Positions 2,017 to 34,218 of a stretch of DNA of 37,001 bases are shown one piece after another. Numbering within the stretch: position 1 is the stretch's first letter; every line of letters starts with the position of its first letter. The position numbers and the translations under genes are program-made. Under the pieces are notes generated by a model that was not told the DNA's origin, searched no databases, and worked only from the letters and a program-made list of their open reading frames with translations. This DNA is from a virus, in IMG/VR virus record IMGVR_UViG_3300048929_000390, positions 1-37,001 of that record, one strand, 5' to 3'.

Positions 2017-3537
2017 GTGGACGTCGACGTCACCGCTTCCGGGCTGGTCGCCCTCGTACCGGACGACCCGGACGGCCTGCTCCTCGTCCCCGGCGGGGAG
2101 CCTGCCGAGCGTATGCACCTCACGCTCGCCTATCTCGGGTCGGACGTCACCGGCTGGTCGGAGGACCGGCGCCGCCGGGTCGTCGAGCTGGTCCGTGCTG
2201 CCGCCGATGGGACCGGCCCGCTCGACGCCCACGTGTCCGGGCACCTCGCGTTCAATCCGACCGGCGGCCCGCACGGTGACCGCGCCCCGTGCGCCGTCTA
2301 CCTGATCGGGGACTGCCCGGATCTCGCACCCCTCCACGACGACGTCACCCGCGCGTTGACCGCCGCCCTCGGCGATGATCTCCACCCGCAGCACACCCCG
2401 TGGATCCCGCATGTGACCGCCCGGTACGGCGACGAGGACACCACCGGGCTGTACTACGCCGGGCCGGTCCGCTTCGACCGGGTGGCCGTCCACCTGGCGG
2501 GCGAGATCACCACGATCCCGCTCGTCTCCGCGAATCTCGAGGCCGAGCTACGGCAGGCTTTCATCCACGGGTGGGCGCTCTCCGGTGGCCCGCTGACCGA
2601 GCGCGTCCGCGCTGCCTGCGTCGCGGCCATCCGACACGGCCGGGAGCACCCCCACCCGGACGTCGTAGAGACGACGATCCGGATCGGGTCCCTCGAAGGC
2701 ACCATGGCCGCGGTGTTCGACCGCCGGGAGAAGCTGTACGAGCACCACATCGCCCAGGTGCAGGCCGCCTGGCATGCCGCGGTGGCCGGGCTCGACATCC
2801 CCGCCGCCGTGTCCCGGTTCATGGGCCGCATCGGGCAGGCCCGCGAAGCCGACACAGACCAGGACCGGCAGGACACCGACGCGATCGCCCGCGCCGAGGC
2901 GCAGCGGCTCGTGCACGACGTCATCGCGAACCCGGCCGCGCGCACCTACCAGGACATGGTCACCGCGCTGCAGCGCGCCATCGTCGAGGCCCAGGCCGAG
3001 GGCCAGGCCGGGACCGTCGGGCTGATCGCCGAGCACGCCGGACAGTCCGGCGTCGACTTCGACCTCGTGTTCCACGACGCCCTGGACCAGCTCGAACGCC
3101 TCGGCGAGTCCTGGGGTGAGGCGCAGGGCTGGGTGTCCCGCGTCGTGGCCGGGAACGCCAACGACGGCGGCGCCGCCCTCGCCCGCGAGGTCCGGGACGG
3201 CGGCGGCTACGACGACTACGTGCGCGCGGTCACCGACGTGATCGACGGCCCCGACACGCGCGCCGTGTCCACGCTCGTCGACCTCGCCATGAATCAGGCC
3301 TACTCGCGCGGCGCCCTCGCCCTCTACGACCGCGAGGGCATCCGCACCGTCGACTACTCCACCGCGGGCGGCGGCAACGTGTGCCCCACCTGCCTGGAAT
3401 ACGAGTCGAAGAACCCGTGGCCGGTCGACCAGGCCCCCGCACCGGGGTGGCATCCGTGGTGTCGGTGCGTGCTCATGCCTGCCAACCCGCTCGAAGCCAT
3501 CCCGCCGGGCATCGCCCGCTACGTCGGCGGGTCCTGA
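2017..3537 (+). CDS. 2H phosphoesterase fused to MuF-like minor head protein
   Basis: The product has 506 residues from GTG 2017, preceded by AGGAGG (2005-2010). Residues 1-175 form a 2H phosphoesterase domain (the 2'-5' RNA ligase/cyclic phosphodiesterase superfamily), with both signature motifs H34-L-T36 (MHLTLAYLG) and H132-V-T134 (PHVTARYG). These are the two catalytic His-x-Thr pairs, about 98 residues apart as usual. Residues about 180-506 are a MuF/SPP1 gp7-like head morphogenesis domain. Its C-terminal signature is complete: C456-x2-C459 ... H479-P-x-C482-x-C484. MuF proteins sit near the portal inside the capsid, and some are ejected with DNA. The fusion therefore implies that a phosphodiesterase is packaged in the virion. 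Substrates known in the superfamily include 2',3'-cyclic RNA ends, 2-5A and, for Acb1, cyclic oligonucleotide defence signals; the substrate here is not deducible. Confidence 0.85.
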   Translation: MDVDVTASGLVALVPDDPDGLLLVPGGEPAERMHLTLAYLGSDVTGWSEDRRRRVVELVRAAADGTGPLDAHVSGHLAFNPTGGPHGDRAPCAVYLIGDCPDLAPLHDDVTRALTAALGDDLHPQHTPWIPHVTARYGDEDTTGLYYAGPVRFDRVAVHLAGEITTIPLVSANLEAELRQAFIHGWALSGGPLTERVRAACVAAIRHGREHPHPDVVETTIRIGSLEGTMAAVFDRREKLYEHHIAQVQAAWHAAVAGLDIPAAVSRFMGRIGQAREADTDQDRQDTDAIARAEAQRLVHDVIANPAARTYQDMVTALQRAIVEAQAEGQAGTVGLIAEHAGQSGVDFDLVFHDALDQLERLGESWGEAQGWVSRVVAGNANDGGAALAREVRDGGGYDDYVRAVTDVIDGPDTRAVSTLVDLAMNQAYSRGALALYDREGIRTVDYSTAGGGNVCPTCLEYESKNPWPVDQAPAPGWHPWCRCVLMPANPLEAIPPGIARYVGGS

Positions 3538-3554
3538 CCAGGAGGAGGAGCCGC

Positions 3555-5279
3555 GTGGCTCGAACGCTCGCGTACGTCTACGGCACCGCCGTGAAGCCCG
3601 GGGTGTCCCGGAACGGGCGGCTCTACACCGCCGACATGATCCGGGCCGCGGTCGACGAGGCACAAACCCGGCTCGCCGACGGCCCGGACATCACCCCGAT
3701 GACCGCGATGACCCACCACGACGCCGAGGACGACAGCGAGAAGATCACCGGCCGTCTCGACCAGCTCACCTGCGACGAGTCCGGGGCCGCCCGGTACCGG
3801 CTCGCCCTGGTGGACAACCCGGCGGCCCGCTCGATCCTCCCGCTGATCGAAACCGAGGGCGGCGCACCCCCCGTGCTGCGCAACGTGAGCATCCGGGGGT
3901 CGTGGAAGGGCGAGATCCGGCGGGTCACCCACGAGGGCCGCACCGTCACCACCGCCGACGGGCTCTCCCTCGACGGGCTGGACTTCACCAAGTCCCCGGG
4001 GGTGGACGGCGCGAACATCGACCGTGTCGTCCGCGTCGGCGCCAGCCCGCGGGAGACCGCCGCCGACGACCGCCGCATCGTCGAGTCGGCCCCCACGGAC
4101 GCCACCGTGCAGCTCGTCGAGGCCGCCCCGTCGCCGTCGCGGTGGGCGGATCCGGGCTACCTCGGGGAGAAGGCCCTCCCGCTCGACACGATGGGGCAGG
4201 CCCGGGCGGCGTGGGCGGCGCTGCGCGAGCAGCACGGCTACACCGACAGGCAGCGCAAGCGGGTCCGCGAGCGTGTGCGGAAGGCCCTCGCCGAGCATGG
4301 CGCCACGATCACCCGCGAGGGCTGGGTGATGACCACCGAGCCCGTCCGCGAGATGGAGCTGTGGCCGCAGACGGCGGGCTGCTACCGGGTGTGCCTGGAC
4401 AACGGCACCGTCGACATCTCCGTGTCCTCGTACGGGGTCGACCCGGCCGACCTCGAGTTGGCGGCCCGCAAGGCGATGGACGGCGCGATCGCCGCGCTCA
4501 ACGCCGTCGACCCCGACCAGGACGGCGACATCGACATCCCCGACGCCGACACCGGCGACGAGGAGACCACCGCGCGTCGCCCCGACGACGACGCGATGGA
4601 AACGACCTCTCCACCGGCCGCCGACCAGGCGACCGGCCAGACCGCACAGGAACAGGAGCCCCGCGTGTCGGAGCAGACCCCCACGGCGGCCGGTACCCCG
4701 GCCGCACCCGCCGCCCAGGCGGCCCCGGCGCCCGCCGCGGCCGCGCCGGTCGAGAACATCGAGCCCCCGGCCCCGACCGCCGTCGTCACCCCGGCCGTCG
4801 ACGAGCCCCGCCTGTCCCTCGGGCAGGTGAAGGACCTCTTCGCGTCCTTCGCCGGCGCTATCGGTGGCCTCGGCGCCCAGGTCGCGGCACCCGCAGCGGC
4901 CGTCGAGGCGGCCCCGGCTGCGGCGGCCCCGGTCGCCGAGGCGGCCCCCGCGCCCGCCGCGGTGCAGGAGACCGAGGAGCAGCGCATCGCCCGGCTGGTC
5001 GCCGAGGGTGTCAAGGCGGCGCTGCCGGGCGCCGTGCAGGCGCACGTCGAGGCGAACGGCCCGACCCGGAAGGGCCTCGTCGAGTCCACGTCCGGTGTGC
5101 TCACCGCCCCGGGCACCGGCGCGGCCGCCACCAGCACCGCCGCGGGCGACTTCGGGTACCCGGAGGGCTGGACCGGGCCGCTCAAGCCGCTGCACGAGTA
5201 CACCCCGGAGGAGTGGCGCCAGCACGTGCGCCCGCAGACCGCCGGTGCCGTCCTCGGCGCCAAGGCCGCCGGGCAGTGA
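3555..5279 (+). CDS. Capsid maturation protease with C-terminal scaffold region
   Basis: The product has 574 residues from GTG 3555, preceded by AGGAGGAG; the open frame extends upstream to 3381 but overlaps the MuF gene. Residues 1-170 resemble phage prohead proteases. They contain SRNGRLYT, the His pair in MTHHD (H54/H55) and the block NVSIRGSW with S112, giving a plausible His-Ser catalytic set as in the T4 gp21/herpesvirus-type protease fold. A helical domain follows at about 195-260 (QARAAWAALREQ ... VRERVRKALAEHGA). The C-terminal 200 residues are Ala/Pro-rich and acidic, then a conserved-looking end (PLHEYTPEEWRQHV), as in scaffolds. A second start inside the gene (4665) could express the scaffold alone. 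The product should assemble the procapsid and cleave the scaffold during maturation. Confidence 0.75.
   Translation: MARTLAYVYGTAVKPGVSRNGRLYTADMIRAAVDEAQTRLADGPDITPMTAMTHHDAEDDSEKITGRLDQLTCDESGAARYRLALVDNPAARSILPLIETEGGAPPVLRNVSIRGSWKGEIRRVTHEGRTVTTADGLSLDGLDFTKSPGVDGANIDRVVRVGASPRETAADDRRIVESAPTDATVQLVEAAPSPSRWADPGYLGEKALPLDTMGQARAAWAALREQHGYTDRQRKRVRERVRKALAEHGATITREGWVMTTEPVREMELWPQTAGCYRVCLDNGTVDISVSSYGVDPADLELAARKAMDGAIAALNAVDPDQDGDIDIPDADTGDEETTARRPDDDAMETTSPPAADQATGQTAQEQEPRVSEQTPTAAGTPAAPAAQAAPAPAAAAPVENIEPPAPTAVVTPAVDEPRLSLGQVKDLFASFAGAIGGLGAQVAAPAAAVEAAPAAAAPVAEAAPAPAAVQETEEQRIARLVAEGVKAALPGAVQAHVEANGPTRKGLVESTSGVLTAPGTGAAATSTAAGDFGYPEGWTGPLKPLHEYTPEEWRQHVRPQTAGAVLGAKAAGQ
4665..5279 (+). 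CDS. Nested in-frame scaffold protein (internal start)
   Basis: An in-frame GTG at 4665 follows CAGGAG (4653-4658) with a 6-base spacer, the same kind of start used by genes in this window. It would give a 204-residue protein beginning MSEQTPTAAGTPAAP: an Ala/Pro-rich segment, a short helix (LSLGQVKDLFASFAGAIGG), a second Ala/Pro linker, a helix (QRIARLVAEGVKAALPG) and the C-terminal capsid-contact-like end. Nested protease/scaffold genes are established in lambda (C/Nu3) and many other phages. Expression from this start is inferred, not shown. Confidence 0.5.
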   Translation: MSEQTPTAAGTPAAPAAQAAPAPAAAAPVENIEPPAPTAVVTPAVDEPRLSLGQVKDLFASFAGAIGGLGAQVAAPAAAVEAAPAAAAPVAEAAPAPAAVQETEEQRIARLVAEGVKAALPGAVQAHVEANGPTRKGLVESTSGVLTAPGTGAAATSTAAGDFGYPEGWTGPLKPLHEYTPEEWRQHVRPQTAGAVLGAKAAGQ

Positions 5280-5285
5280 CCCCCC

Positions 5286-5314
5286 GGCCCCGCCCCTGAC
5301 CGGGCGGGGCCTTT
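5286..5314 (+). terminator. Rho-independent-type terminator after the protease/scaffold gene
   Basis: A perfect 10-bp GC stem, GGCCCCGCCC (5286-5295) with GGGCGGGGCC (5302-5311), has a 6-base loop and is followed by TTT. It lies 6 bases past the stop codon. It would reduce read-through from the head operon into the capsid gene unless the capsid gene has its own promoter. Confidence 0.65.
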
Positions 5315-5391
5315 CCCGCACAACCGTTTCACCCCGGACCGCCAGCCCTGCGCTGGTGCCTCTCAGGCAGTGATGGTCGCCCCCTCTCCCC

Positions 5392-5421
5392 GCCCCCGCG
5401 CCGACCCTGGCCGGGGGCTTT
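5392..5421 (+). terminator. Second stem-loop upstream of the capsid gene
   Basis: GCCCCC (5392-5397) pairs with GGGGGC (5413-5418) around a 15-base loop and is followed by TTTC. It lies about 30 bases before the capsid start. The 5280-5447 interval thus holds two terminator-like hairpins. No convincing -35/-10 promoter is visible between them, although a capsid promoter would be expected there. Confidence 0.4.
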
Positions 5422-5447
5422 CGCATGCCCAAGAGGAGCCCATCCCC

Positions 5448-6821
5448 GTGACCGAGCTTCGCGAGGCCCTGACCGCCGCCGGTGCGTCCGCCCTCATCCC
5501 GAAGATCATCAGCCCGATGCTGCTCGAGTACCAGCGGCGCTACTCCCCGCTGGTCCGCTCGATCCCGTCCCTCAAGTGGGACTCGGACACCTACTACTTC
5601 AACCAGCGCACCGTGAACCCCAACGGCGGGTTCGTGATCGACGGCGGCGCGCGGGTCGTGTCGAACTCCACGTACGTGCAGAACAGCTTCCAGATGAAGC
5701 ACCTGCAGATCGTGGGCGCGATCACCGGCTACGCCGAGGAGGTCACCCGCCAGGTCATCGGCGACCTCCGGGCGCGCGAGATCGAGGGCTCCATCCAGGG
5801 CCTCTACTGGGACACCGAGCACGCCCTGCTGTGGGGTTCGGCGGGCGCAACCCAGTTCGGCGCCTACCCGCAGTTCGACGGGCTGGACTCGCAGGTGTCG
5901 CAGTACTCGGGTGACGGCAAGAACTGCATCGATGCCACCGGCGCCGCCAACTCGGGTGCCCTGTCGCTGGCTCTGCTCGACGAGCTCGCAGACATGGTCG
6001 AGTCCAACGCCGCCATGTCGGTGTTCGACTCGTCCTGGCAGTTCGTGATGTCGAACTCGGCGGTGTCCAAGATCGCCCAGCTGCTCACCAACCAGCAGCG
6101 GTTCGTCGACCAGGTCGAGGTCGCGGCCGGGCTGCTCGTGCCCACCTACCGCGGCATCCCGCTGGTCAAGTCGTCGATGCTGTCGACCCGGTCCTTCCAG
6201 GTCGGCACGGTGACCACCACGCCCGCCACCACCGGTGGCACCCTCGCGGCGAACACGTACTACTACCAGGTCAGCGCCGTGATCGCCCGCCAGGGCGAGA
6301 TCGCCGCGTCCGCCGAGGTGTCGCAGACCACCACCGGCGGCACCTCGACGGTCACCCTGTCCTTCCCGACCCCGACCGGCCTCGACGGGCTGCAGCCGAC
6401 CCTCTACAAGGTCTACCGCGGCACCGCCACCGGCGCCGAGACCCTGATCGGCGTCGTCGACGCCACCGTCGGCCTCGCGGCGGACGGCATCACCCCCGTC
6501 CCGACCACCTCGATCGTCGACGACGGCACCAAGCTGACGCCGAAGAACGGGTCGTCGCAGCCCGCCCAGGTCCCGCCCGCGTACGTCGGCGGGAACACGG
6601 CGAAGAAGGCGCCCAGCGCCGGGCGTGAGCCGATCTACCTGATGGCCCGCGACGAGAACTTCATCTGCCGCCCGTACGTGCGGGAGGCCGTCCCGGTCGA
6701 CATCTACCCGACCACCTCGTCGCCCGACTCGCTGCCCTACGCGCTGGTCAGCGACACCTGCCTGGCGGTCCGGGCGCCGAAGTACATCGGCGCGCTGACC
6801 GGCGTGGCCGTCTCGCTCTGA
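5448..6821 (+). CDS. Major capsid protein (HK97-type) with FN3-like insertion
   Basis: The product has 457 residues from GTG 5448, with AAGAGGAG (5431-5438) as ribosome binding site; the upstream ATG at 5370 has none. The N-terminal helix (LREALTAAGASALIPKIISPMLLEYQ) and the core (GGFVIDGG, YAEEVTRQVIGD, WQFVMSNSAVSKIAQLL) fit the HK97-fold capsid proteins of siphophages. Position after the protease/scaffold supports this. Residues about 252-360 form an extra beta-rich domain with FN3-like features (NTYYYQVSAVIARQGEIAAS ... LYKVYRGTATGAETLIGVV), after which the capsid fold resumes (REPIYLMARDENFICRPYVR). Such insertions usually project from the capsomer and may replace a separate decoration protein. 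No signal peptide, Cys pairs or unusual codon use stand out. Confidence 0.85.
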   Translation: MTELREALTAAGASALIPKIISPMLLEYQRRYSPLVRSIPSLKWDSDTYYFNQRTVNPNGGFVIDGGARVVSNSTYVQNSFQMKHLQIVGAITGYAEEVTRQVIGDLRAREIEGSIQGLYWDTEHALLWGSAGATQFGAYPQFDGLDSQVSQYSGDGKNCIDATGAANSGALSLALLDELADMVESNAAMSVFDSSWQFVMSNSAVSKIAQLLTNQQRFVDQVEVAAGLLVPTYRGIPLVKSSMLSTRSFQVGTVTTTPATTGGTLAANTYYYQVSAVIARQGEIAASAEVSQTTTGGTSTVTLSFPTPTGLDGLQPTLYKVYRGTATGAETLIGVVDATVGLAADGITPVPTTSIVDDGTKLTPKNGSSQPAQVPPAYVGGNTAKKAPSAGREPIYLMARDENFICRPYVREAVPVDIYPTTSSPDSLPYALVSDTCLAVRAPKYIGALTGVAVSL

Positions 6822-7800: not shown

Positions 7801-8325
7801 GTGGCCGGTCACGCCGTCTCGGCAGCCACCCGGGCGAAGATCAGCGCGTCGCTCAAAGGGAAGAAGCACCCCCACGCCGGGCACGCAGTCTCCTCGGCCA
7901 CCAGGGCGAAGATCAGTGCGGCGCTGAGGGGGAAGAAGCACCCCCACGCCGGTCACGCCATCTCGGCGGCGACCAGGGCGAAGATCAGCGCGTCGCTCAA
8001 GGCCCGTCATCCGGCGAAGCCGAAGCCGCCGAAGAAGGCCCGCCCCGCCGGGCACGCGGTCGGCACCACACCGGCAAGGACGGCCCGGAGGGCTGCCCAG
8101 CGCGCCAAGCTCGGACGGACCGGCATCGCGTCGTCGCGGGCCGTCAGCGCCCCACAGCGGGGCCGCCGGAAGCCACGCCCGGCGCACGGGCTGATCTCCG
8201 CGGGCACCGGCACCCACCACACCAGCCGCGGGCTCCTCCACAGCCGTGTGCGGCGGCCCGGACGGTCTCACCTCAAGCGGCGCCGCCCGCACCGTAACCA
8301 CCGGGTCCGCCCGAGGAGGAGGTGA
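7801..8325 (+). CDS. Basic protein with three NUMOD3-type repeats
   Basis: The product has 174 residues, very basic, from GTG 7801 two bases after the adaptor stop. No clear Shine-Dalgarno is seen, so coupling is likely. Residues 3-26, 27-50 and 51-67 are repeats of the form GHAVSAATRAKISASLKGKK + HPHA. This matches the NUMOD3 motif (TRAKISxALKGK), a short DNA-binding helix usually found beside the catalytic domain of GIY-YIG or HNH homing endonucleases. No nuclease motif is present here. The remainder is an Arg/Lys/Pro/His-rich disordered tail (for example HLKRRRPHRNHRVRPRRR). It may be a virion DNA-binding protein or a remnant of a homing enzyme, and its position in the neck operon favours a structural or packaging role. 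Confidence 0.65.
   Translation: MAGHAVSAATRAKISASLKGKKHPHAGHAVSSATRAKISAALRGKKHPHAGHAISAATRAKISASLKARHPAKPKPPKKARPAGHAVGTTPARTARRAAQRAKLGRTGIASSRAVSAPQRGRRKPRPAHGLISAGTGTHHTSRGLLHSRVRRPGRSHLKRRRPHRNHRVRPRRR
7807..8001 (+). repeat. 72-bp tandem repeat encoding NUMOD3 motifs
   Basis: Units start at 7807, 7879 and 7951 (the third is truncated at about 8001). Each full unit encodes 24 residues. Nucleotide identity is high between units, with most differences synonymous or conservative, suggesting recent in-frame duplication. Confidence 0.75.
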
Positions 8326-31762: not shown

Positions 31763-32386
31763 CTACTTCTTCGTCCAGGTGCAGCCGCCCGACGTCTCGA
31801 ACGCCTTGTCGCTGGCCTTGATCGTCACGGTGACGGGGCCGGCGGCGTTCCCGTTGGCGATGATCGCCCCCATGTCGCCGCTCGTGTCCTTCTCCCGCGC
31901 CCAGTAGCAGGACCCGAGGGTGCCCTTCGATCCGTCGGCGCTGTACGTGCCGGGCGCGATCTCGTCCGGCACGGTGTAGGTGCCATCCGAGAACGAGGTC
32001 TGCGGCCCGGCCGGCTGGGCGGGCGCCGCCGCCGGGGCCGCGGCTGCCGGGGCTGCCGGGGCTGCGGCTGCCGGGGCTGCGGCCTGCGTGGTCGGGGACG
32101 CCGCCGACGAGGTGGGGGTGCTGGATCCTCCGCCGTGGGCGACGAGCCCGATCAGCAGGCCGAGCACGAACGTGACGAGCGGCAGGACGAAGCGGCGGGC
32201 CGACTTCTTCGCGGGCGCGGGCAGCTCGACGGGGGTGTTCGTCGGGTGCTGGACGCGGGTCGGCGCCGTGTAGGCGTGCTGGGCCTGCGCCGGGACCGGC
32301 TGCGGCTGTGGCGGAACCCAGTTCTGGCCGCGAGGCTGGGCCGGGGCGGGTGTCGCAGGGTCGGGGCGGTGGGTGTGCTGGGACAC
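31763..32386 (-). CDS. Exported membrane-anchored protein
   Basis: The product has 207 residues from GTG at 32386-32384, chosen for the GAGAGG just upstream; the frame extends to 32437 without one. The N-terminal 80 residues are Pro/Gln-rich. A basic stretch (KKSARR) then precedes a membrane helix (FVLPLVTFVLGLLIGLVAH), an Ala/Pro linker of about 45 residues and a C-terminal domain of 75 residues (GTYTVPDEIAPGTYSADG, SCYWAREKDTSGD, GPVTVTIKASDKAF, GGCTWTKK). Two cysteines may form a disulfide outside the cell. I know this C-terminal domain type from many actinobacterial and actinophage exported proteins. Its leftward, separately promoted position fits a prophage-expressed gene, perhaps changing the host surface or excluding other phages. 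Confidence 0.65.
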   Translation of the reverse strand: MSQHTHRPDPATPAPAQPRGQNWVPPQPQPVPAQAQHAYTAPTRVQHPTNTPVELPAPAKKSARRFVLPLVTFVLGLLIGLVAHGGGSSTPTSSAASPTTQAAAPAAAAPAAPAAAAPAAAPAQPAGPQTSFSDGTYTVPDEIAPGTYSADGSKGTLGSCYWAREKDTSGDMGAIIANGNAAGPVTVTIKASDKAFETSGGCTWTKK

Positions 32387-32401
32387 GAGGGGCCTCTCTC
32401 G

Positions 32402-32413
32402 GGGGTAGGGGTC
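32402..32413 (-). promoter_or_regulatory. Start-associated element GACCCCTACCCC (minus strand)
   Basis: Read on the minus strand, the 12-mer GACCCCTACCCC lies 15 bases upstream of the GTG start at 32386, in the same orientation and at nearly the same distance as the copy before the gene at 16662. Confidence 0.5.
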
Positions 32414-32484
32414 GGGTGGTGCTCCCACAACCAACATCGTTGTGACGTGGAATCGTCGTTACCGGTAGACGACGAGGACGGGCG

Positions 32485-33006
32485 TCACCTCGCCAGGTGG
32501 AGCTCCGCGAGCACAGTGAGAAACTCGGACCGGTTGGGGCTGCCGACCTTCTCCCGCTTGGACTCGAGGACGGCGATCTCCTCGGCCGTCAGACGGAGCT
32601 GCTTGGGTGTGGGCCTGTCGACGGCCTTCCGTGCGCCGCGAGGGCGGGCGGGGAGCCCGGAGTCGTCCCCCGGCACCCCCTTGTCGAAGCGGTCGTCGAG
32701 CTCGTGGTGGTGGGCGCGGAAGGCGTCGAGGAACCACTCCGACCATGACCGGCCTGCGAGGTCGCGCTCGATGGCTTCGACGACGGGGAGCGGGAAGTAG
32801 GCGGTGTACTGCAGCTTCGTGCGCCCTGCGGGTTTCTCGGCGGGCTTGCGTTTCGGCGGGCGGGCCCGCTTCTCGGGCTCCTCCCCCACCGGTTCCCGTT
32901 CGGGGGCGGGCGCCGCTGTCTGCCGCCTCGGCGGGAGTGCGAGCCCGGCCGCCCGGGCGGGTGGCGGGGACGTCATCGCGGACAGGTCGCGGGGGTCCTG
33001 CGTCAT
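32485..33006 (-). CDS. ParB-like ribbon-helix-helix partition protein
   Basis: The product has 173 residues from the ATG at 33006-33004, which overlaps the parA stop by 4 bases. The N-terminal 60 residues are disordered and rich in Pro, Arg and Lys (KRARPPKRKPAEKPAGR). Residues 62-99 (KLQYTAYFPLPVVEAIERDL, then SWSEWFLDAFRAH) and 133-171 (PKQLRLTAEEIAVLESKREK, then NRSEFLTVLAEL) each read as strand-helix-helix, i.e. two ribbon-helix-helix units. Small RHH proteins (ParG, omega) serve as centromere-binding partners of ParA and as autorepressors. It probably binds the 11-bp array upstream of parA. The function rests on gene order and fold. Confidence 0.65.
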   Translation of the reverse strand: MTQDPRDLSAMTSPPPARAAGLALPPRRQTAAPAPEREPVGEEPEKRARPPKRKPAEKPAGRTKLQYTAYFPLPVVEAIERDLAGRSWSEWFLDAFRAHHHELDDRFDKGVPGDDSGLPARPRGARKAVDRPTPKQLRLTAEEIAVLESKREKVGSPNRSEFLTVLAELHLAR

Positions 33007-33908
33007 GGCGCCACCTCGACGCGCTCGGCGAGACGGGCGGTGAACTCCTGGGCGAGCGCCGCATAGTCGGCGGCCAGCCCGGCGGCCGATGCGGCGAGCC
33101 GGGGCCCGGCGTCGTCGGCCCGGTGCCGCCCGGCTCGCAGCTGCGCGAGCCGGGCCGCCTTCGCGGCGGGCAGGTCGGCCTCGACTTCGTGGACGAGACG
33201 GCCGACGTCGCGGGTGTTCACGGCGGCCGCCTCGACGTGCCGGATCCGGGCGTCGAACACGAGGTCGGGGTTCCCCAGGTCCCGCGCCACCGCTTTGCGG
33301 GTGTCGGCGGCGATCCGCTTCGACGTCACCCCGGTCCCGAACAGCACCACGCCGAGGAGCTGCACGTACGGGTTGCTCGACTGGCGGACGGCGGCGAACA
33401 GCTCGGAGACCTCGACGAGCCCGTCGAGGGATGCGGCGTCGCTCTTGGTGGGGATGACGACGTACTCCGACGTGGTCAACGCCATGCGCTGCACCGTCTC
33501 CTCCCCCGGCGGGCAGTCCAACAGGATGAGGTCGTAGTTCCCGGCGAGCGGTGCGAGGGCCTGCTCGACGGCTGTGTCGACGCTCTCGCCGCGGATGGCC
33601 CGGGAGTAGAGCGCGCCCGCCATCTCGCCGATGACCTTCCCGCCGGGGATGACGTCGAGGTTCGGTCGCACGTTCTCCACGGGTGCGAGTGGGGCCCCGG
33701 TGGTGGCGGCGACGAACATCGACCGACCTAGATCATTTCTGGGGTCATTTTTGATGCCGAGGTCGCGGGCCAGGTTTCCCTGGCGGTCGAGATCGCACAG
33801 CAGGACCCGATACCCGGCGGCGGCGATCAGCCCACCGAGGTTCGCGGTGAGCGACGTCTTCCCGACGCCACCCTTCCCGTTGATGAAGGACACGGTGCGC
33901 TCGATCAT
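33003..33908 (-). CDS. parA: ParA-type partition ATPase
   Basis: The product has 301 residues from the ATG at 33908-33906, preceded on its strand by AGGAG; the open frame runs further upstream to 34145 through the repeat array, but that part is low-complexity. It has a deviant Walker A motif, KGGVGKTS, with signature lysine K12 and K17; a Walker A' (VLLCDLDRQGNLA); and a Walker B (LILLDCPPG). There is no N-terminal helix-turn-helix, as in small (type Ib) ParA proteins that work with RHH partners. It uses ATP binding to move DNA on the nucleoid. A ParA in a phage suggests that the prophage is inherited as a plasmid, as in some mycobacteriophages with parABS. Confidence 0.85.
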   Translation of the reverse strand: MIERTVSFINGKGGVGKTSLTANLGGLIAAAGYRVLLCDLDRQGNLARDLGIKNDPRNDLGRSMFVAATTGAPLAPVENVRPNLDVIPGGKVIGEMAGALYSRAIRGESVDTAVEQALAPLAGNYDLILLDCPPGEETVQRMALTTSEYVVIPTKSDAASLDGLVEVSELFAAVRQSSNPYVQLLGVVLFGTGVTSKRIAADTRKAVARDLGNPDLVFDARIRHVEAAAVNTRDVGRLVHEVEADLPAAKAARLAQLRAGRHRADDAGPRLAASAAGLAADYAALAQEFTARLAERVEVAP

Positions 33909-34036
33909 GGCGGGGAGCTCCTGGGGGGCTTGTGGGGTGCGGGTGGCAGGTGGGCCGGTTGCGCGCGGAAAGTACACCACCACTCCCCCACCGGTTGGCG
34001 ACAGACACGCGGCACGTGTCCCATCCATGACGGGCC

Positions 34037-34157
34037 GACACGCGGCACACTGGCCGTCTGTCGGCCACCACCGTGCCGCCCGTTGCCCGCATGTTGGCCG
34101 CCTGTTGGCCGCTGGTGTGCGGCAGGGTGGCAGCCGGTCGGCCACTCACTGGCTACC
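34037..34157. repeat. 11-bp phased repeat array (candidate centromere/operator)
   Basis: From 34048 to 34157 the sequence divides into ten adjacent 11-mers resembling TGTTGGCCGCC. In all ten, base 7 is C; base 6 is G in nine and base 10 is C in nine. The two best units, TGTTGGCCGCC and TGTTGGCCGCT, are at 34092-34113. A weaker unit lies at 34037-34047. The 11-bp spacing places every unit on nearly the same face of the helix, as in the iteron centromeres bound by RHH partition proteins. Confidence 0.6.
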
Positions 34158-34218
34158 CGCGTGCGGCCTCTTGGCGGGGTGCGGTCGGGTAGCGGGCTGC
34201 CCACACGTCACACCGCTC

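Follow-up and report, generated by a model that had tools for sequence, protein, structure and literature searches.

A probable centromere of phased 11-bp repeats next to a type I partition operon with a predicted tandem ribbon-helix-helix ParB on an actinobacterial phage fragment

Short direct repeats in front of a parA gene on a virus fragment raise the question of whether they form a centromere and, if so, which protein reads them and in which geometry. The window, i.e. the whole stretch of DNA analysed here, is a virus record from IMG/VR with a length of 37,001 bases and represents an incomplete fragment. For positions 34037 to 34157 an earlier note on this DNA had proposed ten adjacent 11-mers as a candidate centromere. 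The array is here regarded, with high confidence, as the centromere (parS) of a type I ribbon-helix-helix (RHH) partition module on an actinobacterial phage, which is probably temperate and kept as a plasmid prophage. The features of the module are the following:

33909 to 34212, minus strand: 11-bp repeat array of about 27 in-phase units, candidate centromere (parS), from cyclic HMM and column information
34037 to 34146, minus strand: core of the array, comprising the ten units of the earlier note and best conserved (lag-11 z 5.8, column counts)
33003 to 33908, minus strand: parA, 301 aa, Walker-type ParA ATPase (Pfam, PHROG and PDB matches)
32485 to 33006, minus strand: parB, 173 aa, predicted tandem RHH protein (AlphaFold2, gene order in relatives)
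32827 to 33006, minus strand: ParB residues 1-60, disordered tail with R-x-x-G-L motif, candidate ParA-contact region (pLDDT 51-58, alignment)
32710 to 32817, minus strand: ParB residues 64-99, RHH domain 1, which seems to correspond to the one RHH in pCXC100-type ParB (alignment, AlphaFold2)
32494 to 32610, minus strand: ParB residues 133-171, RHH domain 2 with QLRLT strand, missing from single-RHH relatives (alignment, AlphaFold2)

The ten 11-mers were found at 34037-34146 with the columns that had been described for them (C7 in 10/10, G6 in 9/10 and C10 in 9/10 units), and their period also held against shuffled sequence. The autocorrelation of 34037-34157 at lag 11 was 0.55 (z 5.8, 2,000 dinucleotide shuffles) with harmonics at lag 22 (5.4) and lag 33 (5.4), and 0 of the 2,000 shuffles matched this signal, whatever the lag. 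When the whole window was scanned in 121-bp segments, the lag-11 maximum of 0.59 (mean 0.277, sd 0.05) was located at the array. Within 34037-34157 the lags 5, 6, 16, 17 and 28 were depleted and lag 3 reached only 1.0, so that the rhythm is not codon periodicity. The parA frame is open upstream to 34145 and the region is GC-rich, both of which would suit a chance 11-bp rhythm arising from composition, codon structure or the coding of an amphipathic helix; the probability of this explanation is negligible, since all shuffles stayed below the signal, there is no excess at lag 3, 11 is not divisible by 3 and the same period is found at orthologous positions where the letters differ.

The extent of the array was determined with a cyclic HMM in which slips were permitted. 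The path from 34212 to 33909 was slip-free and comprised about 27 units, ending at the base that precedes the parA start codon, and the log-likelihood gain was 82 nats in comparison to 14-28 nats for shuffles at period 11. The summed column information at period 11 amounted to 6.95 bits (null 2.74 ± 0.25). Both flanks of the core were periodic by themselves (33909-34036, P<0.0005; 34158-34212, P=0.0015), and the core matrix scored positively on them in only 1 of 11 registers, namely the one in phase with the core. The ten units of the earlier note are thus present, but its interval 34037-34157 was too narrow for an array that spans 33909-34212. Just 2.8 units (34082-34112) were recovered by Tandem Repeats Finder, presumably because the units are degenerate, with about 6 bits each. 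The consensus in the sense of parA is gGCc(a/c)RYnnGC, units on the sense strand include GGCCAACAGGC, GGCCAACATGC and GGGCAACGGGC, and the columns of the array have dyad symmetry (P 0.009).

The repeats are located directly upstream of the parA-parB pair. ParA carries its P-loop at residues 11-18, is without an N-terminal HTH domain and matched Pfam AAA_31 (E 8e-32, residues 4-182), PHROG 164 (ParA-like partition protein, E 2.5e-39) and PDB structures of the ParA family, including 8ray and 2oze. A small RHH protein with a flexible N-tail is encoded downstream of parA, as in type Ib modules, but with two RHH domains and not one. In type Ib the centromere is located upstream of the operon, which is repressed by the ParBs, and the centromere of pCXC100 consists of direct repeats only (PMC5016525). 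A type II ParMRC system was ruled out, as the motor is ParA-like and not an actin-like ATPase. The closest ParA relative found was that of Pseudonocardia acidicola (L001, 68%), followed by those of plasmids of Arthrobacter, Rhodococcus and Microbacteriaceae (about 47%). The parB gene begins within the end of parA, with an overlap of 4 bp, and the gene order is kept in relatives. Past the virion genes and on the opposite strand, the window contains parB and parA, followed by the array and by genes for a small protein that weakly resembles sigma factors, for an HTH regulator (DUF5753) and for a protein with DUF6879. The gene at 31763-32437 on the minus strand, downstream of parB, encodes a protein that is rich in alanine and proline and carries an Rv1352/Rv1906c domain at its C-terminus (NCBIfam E 1e-24).

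As reader of the repeats, the RHH protein encoded at 32485-33006 had been proposed. Its designation as RHH was right and yet incomplete, as a tandem RHH protein that folds as a single-chain pseudo-dimer is predicted. For the window ParB no PHROG or NCBIfam family was reported, nor any Pfam family at E up to 0.001. In the alignment two RHH-like segments were seen in the proteins of the window, P. acidicola and Arthrobacter, and the first segment only in those of Rhodococcus, Cryobacterium and Curtobacterium; the second segment of the P. acidicola protein matched PF01402 RHH_1 with an E of 5.7e-4, just under the family cut-off. The R-x-x-G-L motif of the tail is conserved among the aligned tandem-RHH relatives. 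The AlphaFold2 model comprises the elements E64-71, H73-82, H88-99 and E133-140, H141-154, H159-171, with pLDDT of about 90 for both RHH domains and below 60 for the N-terminal tail of 60 residues; being a monomer prediction from a five-sequence alignment (pTM 0.54), it would also be compatible with a domain-swapped homodimer. Since the two strands are the only ones listed in the monomer model, they should pair with each other, giving the RHH dimer fold in one chain.

Searches with the ParB model (Foldseek and VIA-align) gave as top matches chains of the F-plasmid relaxosome (residues 65-173 vs 9f0x_G: Z 10.0, rmsd 2.4 Å, 89 residues), which from the composition of the complex we take to be TraY, and DndE and VirC2 at lower ranks. 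The TraY protein of F contains the RHH dimer fold whole in a single polypeptide, as a monomer, and that of R1 has one RHH and dimerises (PMC12117103). These fused and unfused alternatives appear to recur in the partition family. Judged from the model, each ParB chain would be a fused RHH pseudo-dimer that fills one array unit. A variant of the centromere reading, in which ParB forms an ordinary homodimer or higher oligomer via both RHH domains, the intramolecular pairing is an artefact of monomer prediction and the 11-bp spacing results from dimer-dimer contacts, is considered rather unlikely. The shallow alignment behind the model is in its favour, as is the dyad symmetry of the repeat matrices, for which a homodimer is a simpler explanation than a pseudo-dimer with two different halves; the pLDDT of both domains and the fit to the relaxosome chains over both of them speak for the fused form.

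In order to compare repeat period and ParB architecture, ParA, ParB and the upstream region were located in 56 sequences, of which 55 were included in the tree (L023 repeats L001). The loci were gathered through ParA or ParB, so that their adjacency to parA is partly due to selection; the period was not selected. Periods of 6, 9, 12 and 15 at loci with a strong lag-3 signal (many of L043-L049, L051-L053, L056, L058-L061, L065 and L066) were left uncounted, since this signal reflects codon periodicity. With codon periodicity set aside, three clean period classes of 11, 12 and 9 bp were obtained.

The period of 11 bp was found in the window and at L001 and L038 to L042, all with tandem RHH, and these loci form one ParA clade (support 98/91). 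The array of P. acidicola adjoins parA and comprises 66 full units in 731 bp without a break (5270-6000; core G 92%, C 95%) with a GC step every 11 bp, and that of L038 has 76 units; the two arrays extend over 730-840 bp. Throughout the 11-bp clade the repeat letters vary and the period, the position by parA and the GC step persist, as is expected for a centromere that co-evolves with its reader. A period of 12 bp, likewise with tandem RHH, was found in Arthrobacter and relatives, Amnibacterium, Glutamicibacter and others as well as on the large linear Rhodococcus plasmids pBD2, pREL1, pRHL2 and pFiD188. The period of 9 bp belongs to eight plasmids with single-RHH ParB (clade support 100/100). 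One of these proteins (L017) was tested against the pCXC100 ParB structure 3no7 and matched it with an E of 3e-7, and both of two tested (L017 and L022) matched PF18064 CB_ParB_C; this family was absent from the matches listed for four tandem-RHH relatives (E up to 1). Membership of the window module in the pCXC100/CB_ParB_C subfamily was ruled out by the ParB domain content and by the period of 11 and not 9. The fused-ParB group is not named by any family in the libraries searched.

Scans of viral contigs with a single ParA protein, and likewise with ParB, confirmed no relative, and a scan with a ParA alignment then reached L139 to L143; the divergence within the ParB alignment was too great for a corresponding scan. 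Two loci fetched afterwards as a check, L142 and the one shared identically by L139 and L140, had 11-bp repeats and tandem RHH. L143 had a period of 12 bp by autocorrelation and an apparent tandem RHH; a penalised HMM did not discriminate between 12 and 9. No clear array was seen at some tandem-RHH loci (L002/L029, L031, L054, L055 and L057). Plasmid relatives obtained through the pCXC100 ParB (L220 to L222) had no long 9-bp array, and about three 9-bp units (AGTACTAWT) follow parB at L220; the association of single RHH with 9 bp is therefore limited to one ParA clade with 8 loci. Period and architecture change on very few branches, so that their link is consistent, but amounts to two or three independent contrasts.

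Arrays with a clade-specific period were thus present upstream of homologous parA genes on plasmids, in genomes and on other viral contigs. Together with their changing repeat sequence, this is as predicted for a centromere read by ParB, and the earlier proposal of a candidate centromere before parA gained weight. From these sequence comparisons we infer that ParB reads the array. Phage-plasmids need an origin, and iteron origins typically have direct repeats, for which reason the units might be iterons bound by a Rep protein; this is very improbable, given that the compared arrays are located upstream of parA (partly by selection of loci) with a period that follows the ParB type, that no Rep or replication initiator was identified among the window genes tested, and that the array units are short, iterons usually being longer than 11 bp. 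As the array extends right to the parA start codon, ParB bound there would probably also repress the operon, and the array is possibly also the operator of parAB. That it serves as operator only, with the centromere in a part of the phage beyond the sequenced fragment, is improbable: RHH ParBs do act as repressors (PMC5016525) and the array fills the upstream region as far as the start codon, but 66-76 units over 730-840 bp in the relatives are far beyond the needs of a repressor, and in those type Ib systems that have been characterised it is the upstream repeats that form the centromere (PMC5016525).

A further, joint interpretation of array and reader is put forward tentatively, at somewhat less than even confidence. 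Within one ParA family, the centromere geometry would follow the ParB architecture, with single-RHH dimers on 9-bp and fused tandem-RHH chains on 11- or 12-bp repeats; the fused form would be a comb on one DNA face with one monomer per repeat, and not the spiral of dimers of pSM19035, and the fused group would occur on actinobacterial plasmids, on large linear plasmids of Rhodococcus and in phages. With a helical repeat of 10.5 bp, successive readers are rotated by -120 degrees at 7 bp, -51 degrees at 9 bp, +17 degrees at 11 bp and +51 degrees at 12 bp. With 11 bp per unit and a turn of about 17 degrees, neighbouring readers would lie nearly on one face of the DNA, with slow drift. In the favoured reading of the array as centromere, the course from ParB binding onward is conceived as follows. 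About 27 fused RHH ParB chains, one per unit, would form a nearly straight comb along the DNA, from which the disordered N-tails may present many R-x-x-G-L copies to ParA. The presented tails would stimulate the ParA ATPase, and sister copies would then be moved apart on the nucleoid.

Several observations were made at the related loci. The genome of P. acidicola contains a second, divergent ParA/ParB locus (L024) with an array of period 12, so that two spacing classes occur in one genome, and the L001 contig also has an open frame at 3396-4559 that resembles a tyrosine recombinase. The sequences L043-L049, L051-L053, L056, L058-L060 and L066 are genomes of the family of the L001 host. There, the gene that follows parA keeps an N-terminal tail like DLSxAFG...GLLPPR, an apparent PadR-like winged helix replaces the RHH domains (PF03551 E about 5e-5 for the two tested, below the family cut-off), and no clear non-coding array was seen upstream of parA. 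It seems that at these loci the tail was kept and the domain that reads the DNA was replaced.

Virion and lysis genes of the window encode a major head protein, a head-tail adaptor, a tape measure protein and an endolysin. Virion genes and a partition module are therefore combined on one 37-kb virus record, a combination expected of phage-plasmids. None of 30 phage records related through the capsid protein, fragments among them, contained a ParA match. A tyrosine integrase was present in the five longest of ten phage records searched and none was found in the window fragment. In cluster A mycobacteriophages, parABS replaces the integration functions and is located downstream of the virion genes (PMC7157519), a placement of the par module that the window resembles. 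The idea that par had taken over the site of an integrase was rejected, as by coordinates the integrase of the relatives is located elsewhere than the par module of the window. The capsid protein of L067, an 8,025-bp IMG/VR contig from another metagenome, is 100% identical to that of the window, so that this phage, or one very close to it, has been sampled on two occasions. The gene at 7801-8325 contains a 72-bp coding repeat (7804-8000, 2.7 copies, 83% match), and a motif such as AGHAVSAATRAKISASLKGKKHPH recurs in the encoded protein.

Work on RHH centromeres has centred on a small number of plasmids. In the loci compared here, a single ParA lineage comprises arrays of 9, 11 and 12 bp with up to about 76 units and single or fused RHH readers, and by this natural variation the relation between repeat spacing and the geometry of the partition complex becomes testable. 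The fused ParB, if confirmed, would to our knowledge be the first case in which a single-chain RHH pseudo-dimer is proposed to act in DNA partition. In a recent plasmid survey pB171 and pSM19035 were the sole RHH references (PMC13245405), and with references so limited, such systems may be hidden among the plasmids for which it listed no system or an unidentified one. DNA labelling and vector stabilisation in actinobacteria could also profit from orthogonal arrays and readers.

Among known systems, the type Ib parABS of pCXC100 from Leifsonia xyli subsp. cynodontis (3no7, PF18064) resembles the window in that parA is followed by the gene of an RHH ParB with a flexible N-tail and the operon is preceded by tandem direct repeats, and the ParA of its single-RHH relatives is homologous to that of the window. 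However, the pCXC100 ParB has a single RHH and the window ParB two RHH domains, and the repeat length is 9 bp in pCXC100 and in the arrays of its single-RHH relatives, whereas it is 11 bp in the window. TraY of the F plasmid likewise has two RHH halves in one chain, and several monomers bind DNA side by side, but it acts at oriT in conjugation, without a ParA partner and without a long array. In R1/pB171-type parC (type II), arrays of about 11-bp repeats are bound by an RHH protein, as proposed for the window, with the actin-like ParM as motor in place of ParA. The parABS modules of RedRock type from cluster A mycobacteriophages, compared by module and repeats, are also phage partition modules downstream of the virion genes with a direct-repeat parS, which is made up of two sets of eight copies of an 8-bp motif (PMC7157519) in contrast to the 11-bp units of the window. 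In the delta-omega-parS system of pSM19035, a type I RHH ParB also binds contiguous short repeats and has a ParA partner; at least four contiguous repeats are needed for full ParA activation, and dimers wrap around the 7-bp repeats of mixed orientation in a left-handed spiral (PMC9499535), whereas the 11-bp repeats of the window run head to tail. The window module represents a variant form of type I RHH partition, in which the array is longer than first noted and the reader is unusual.
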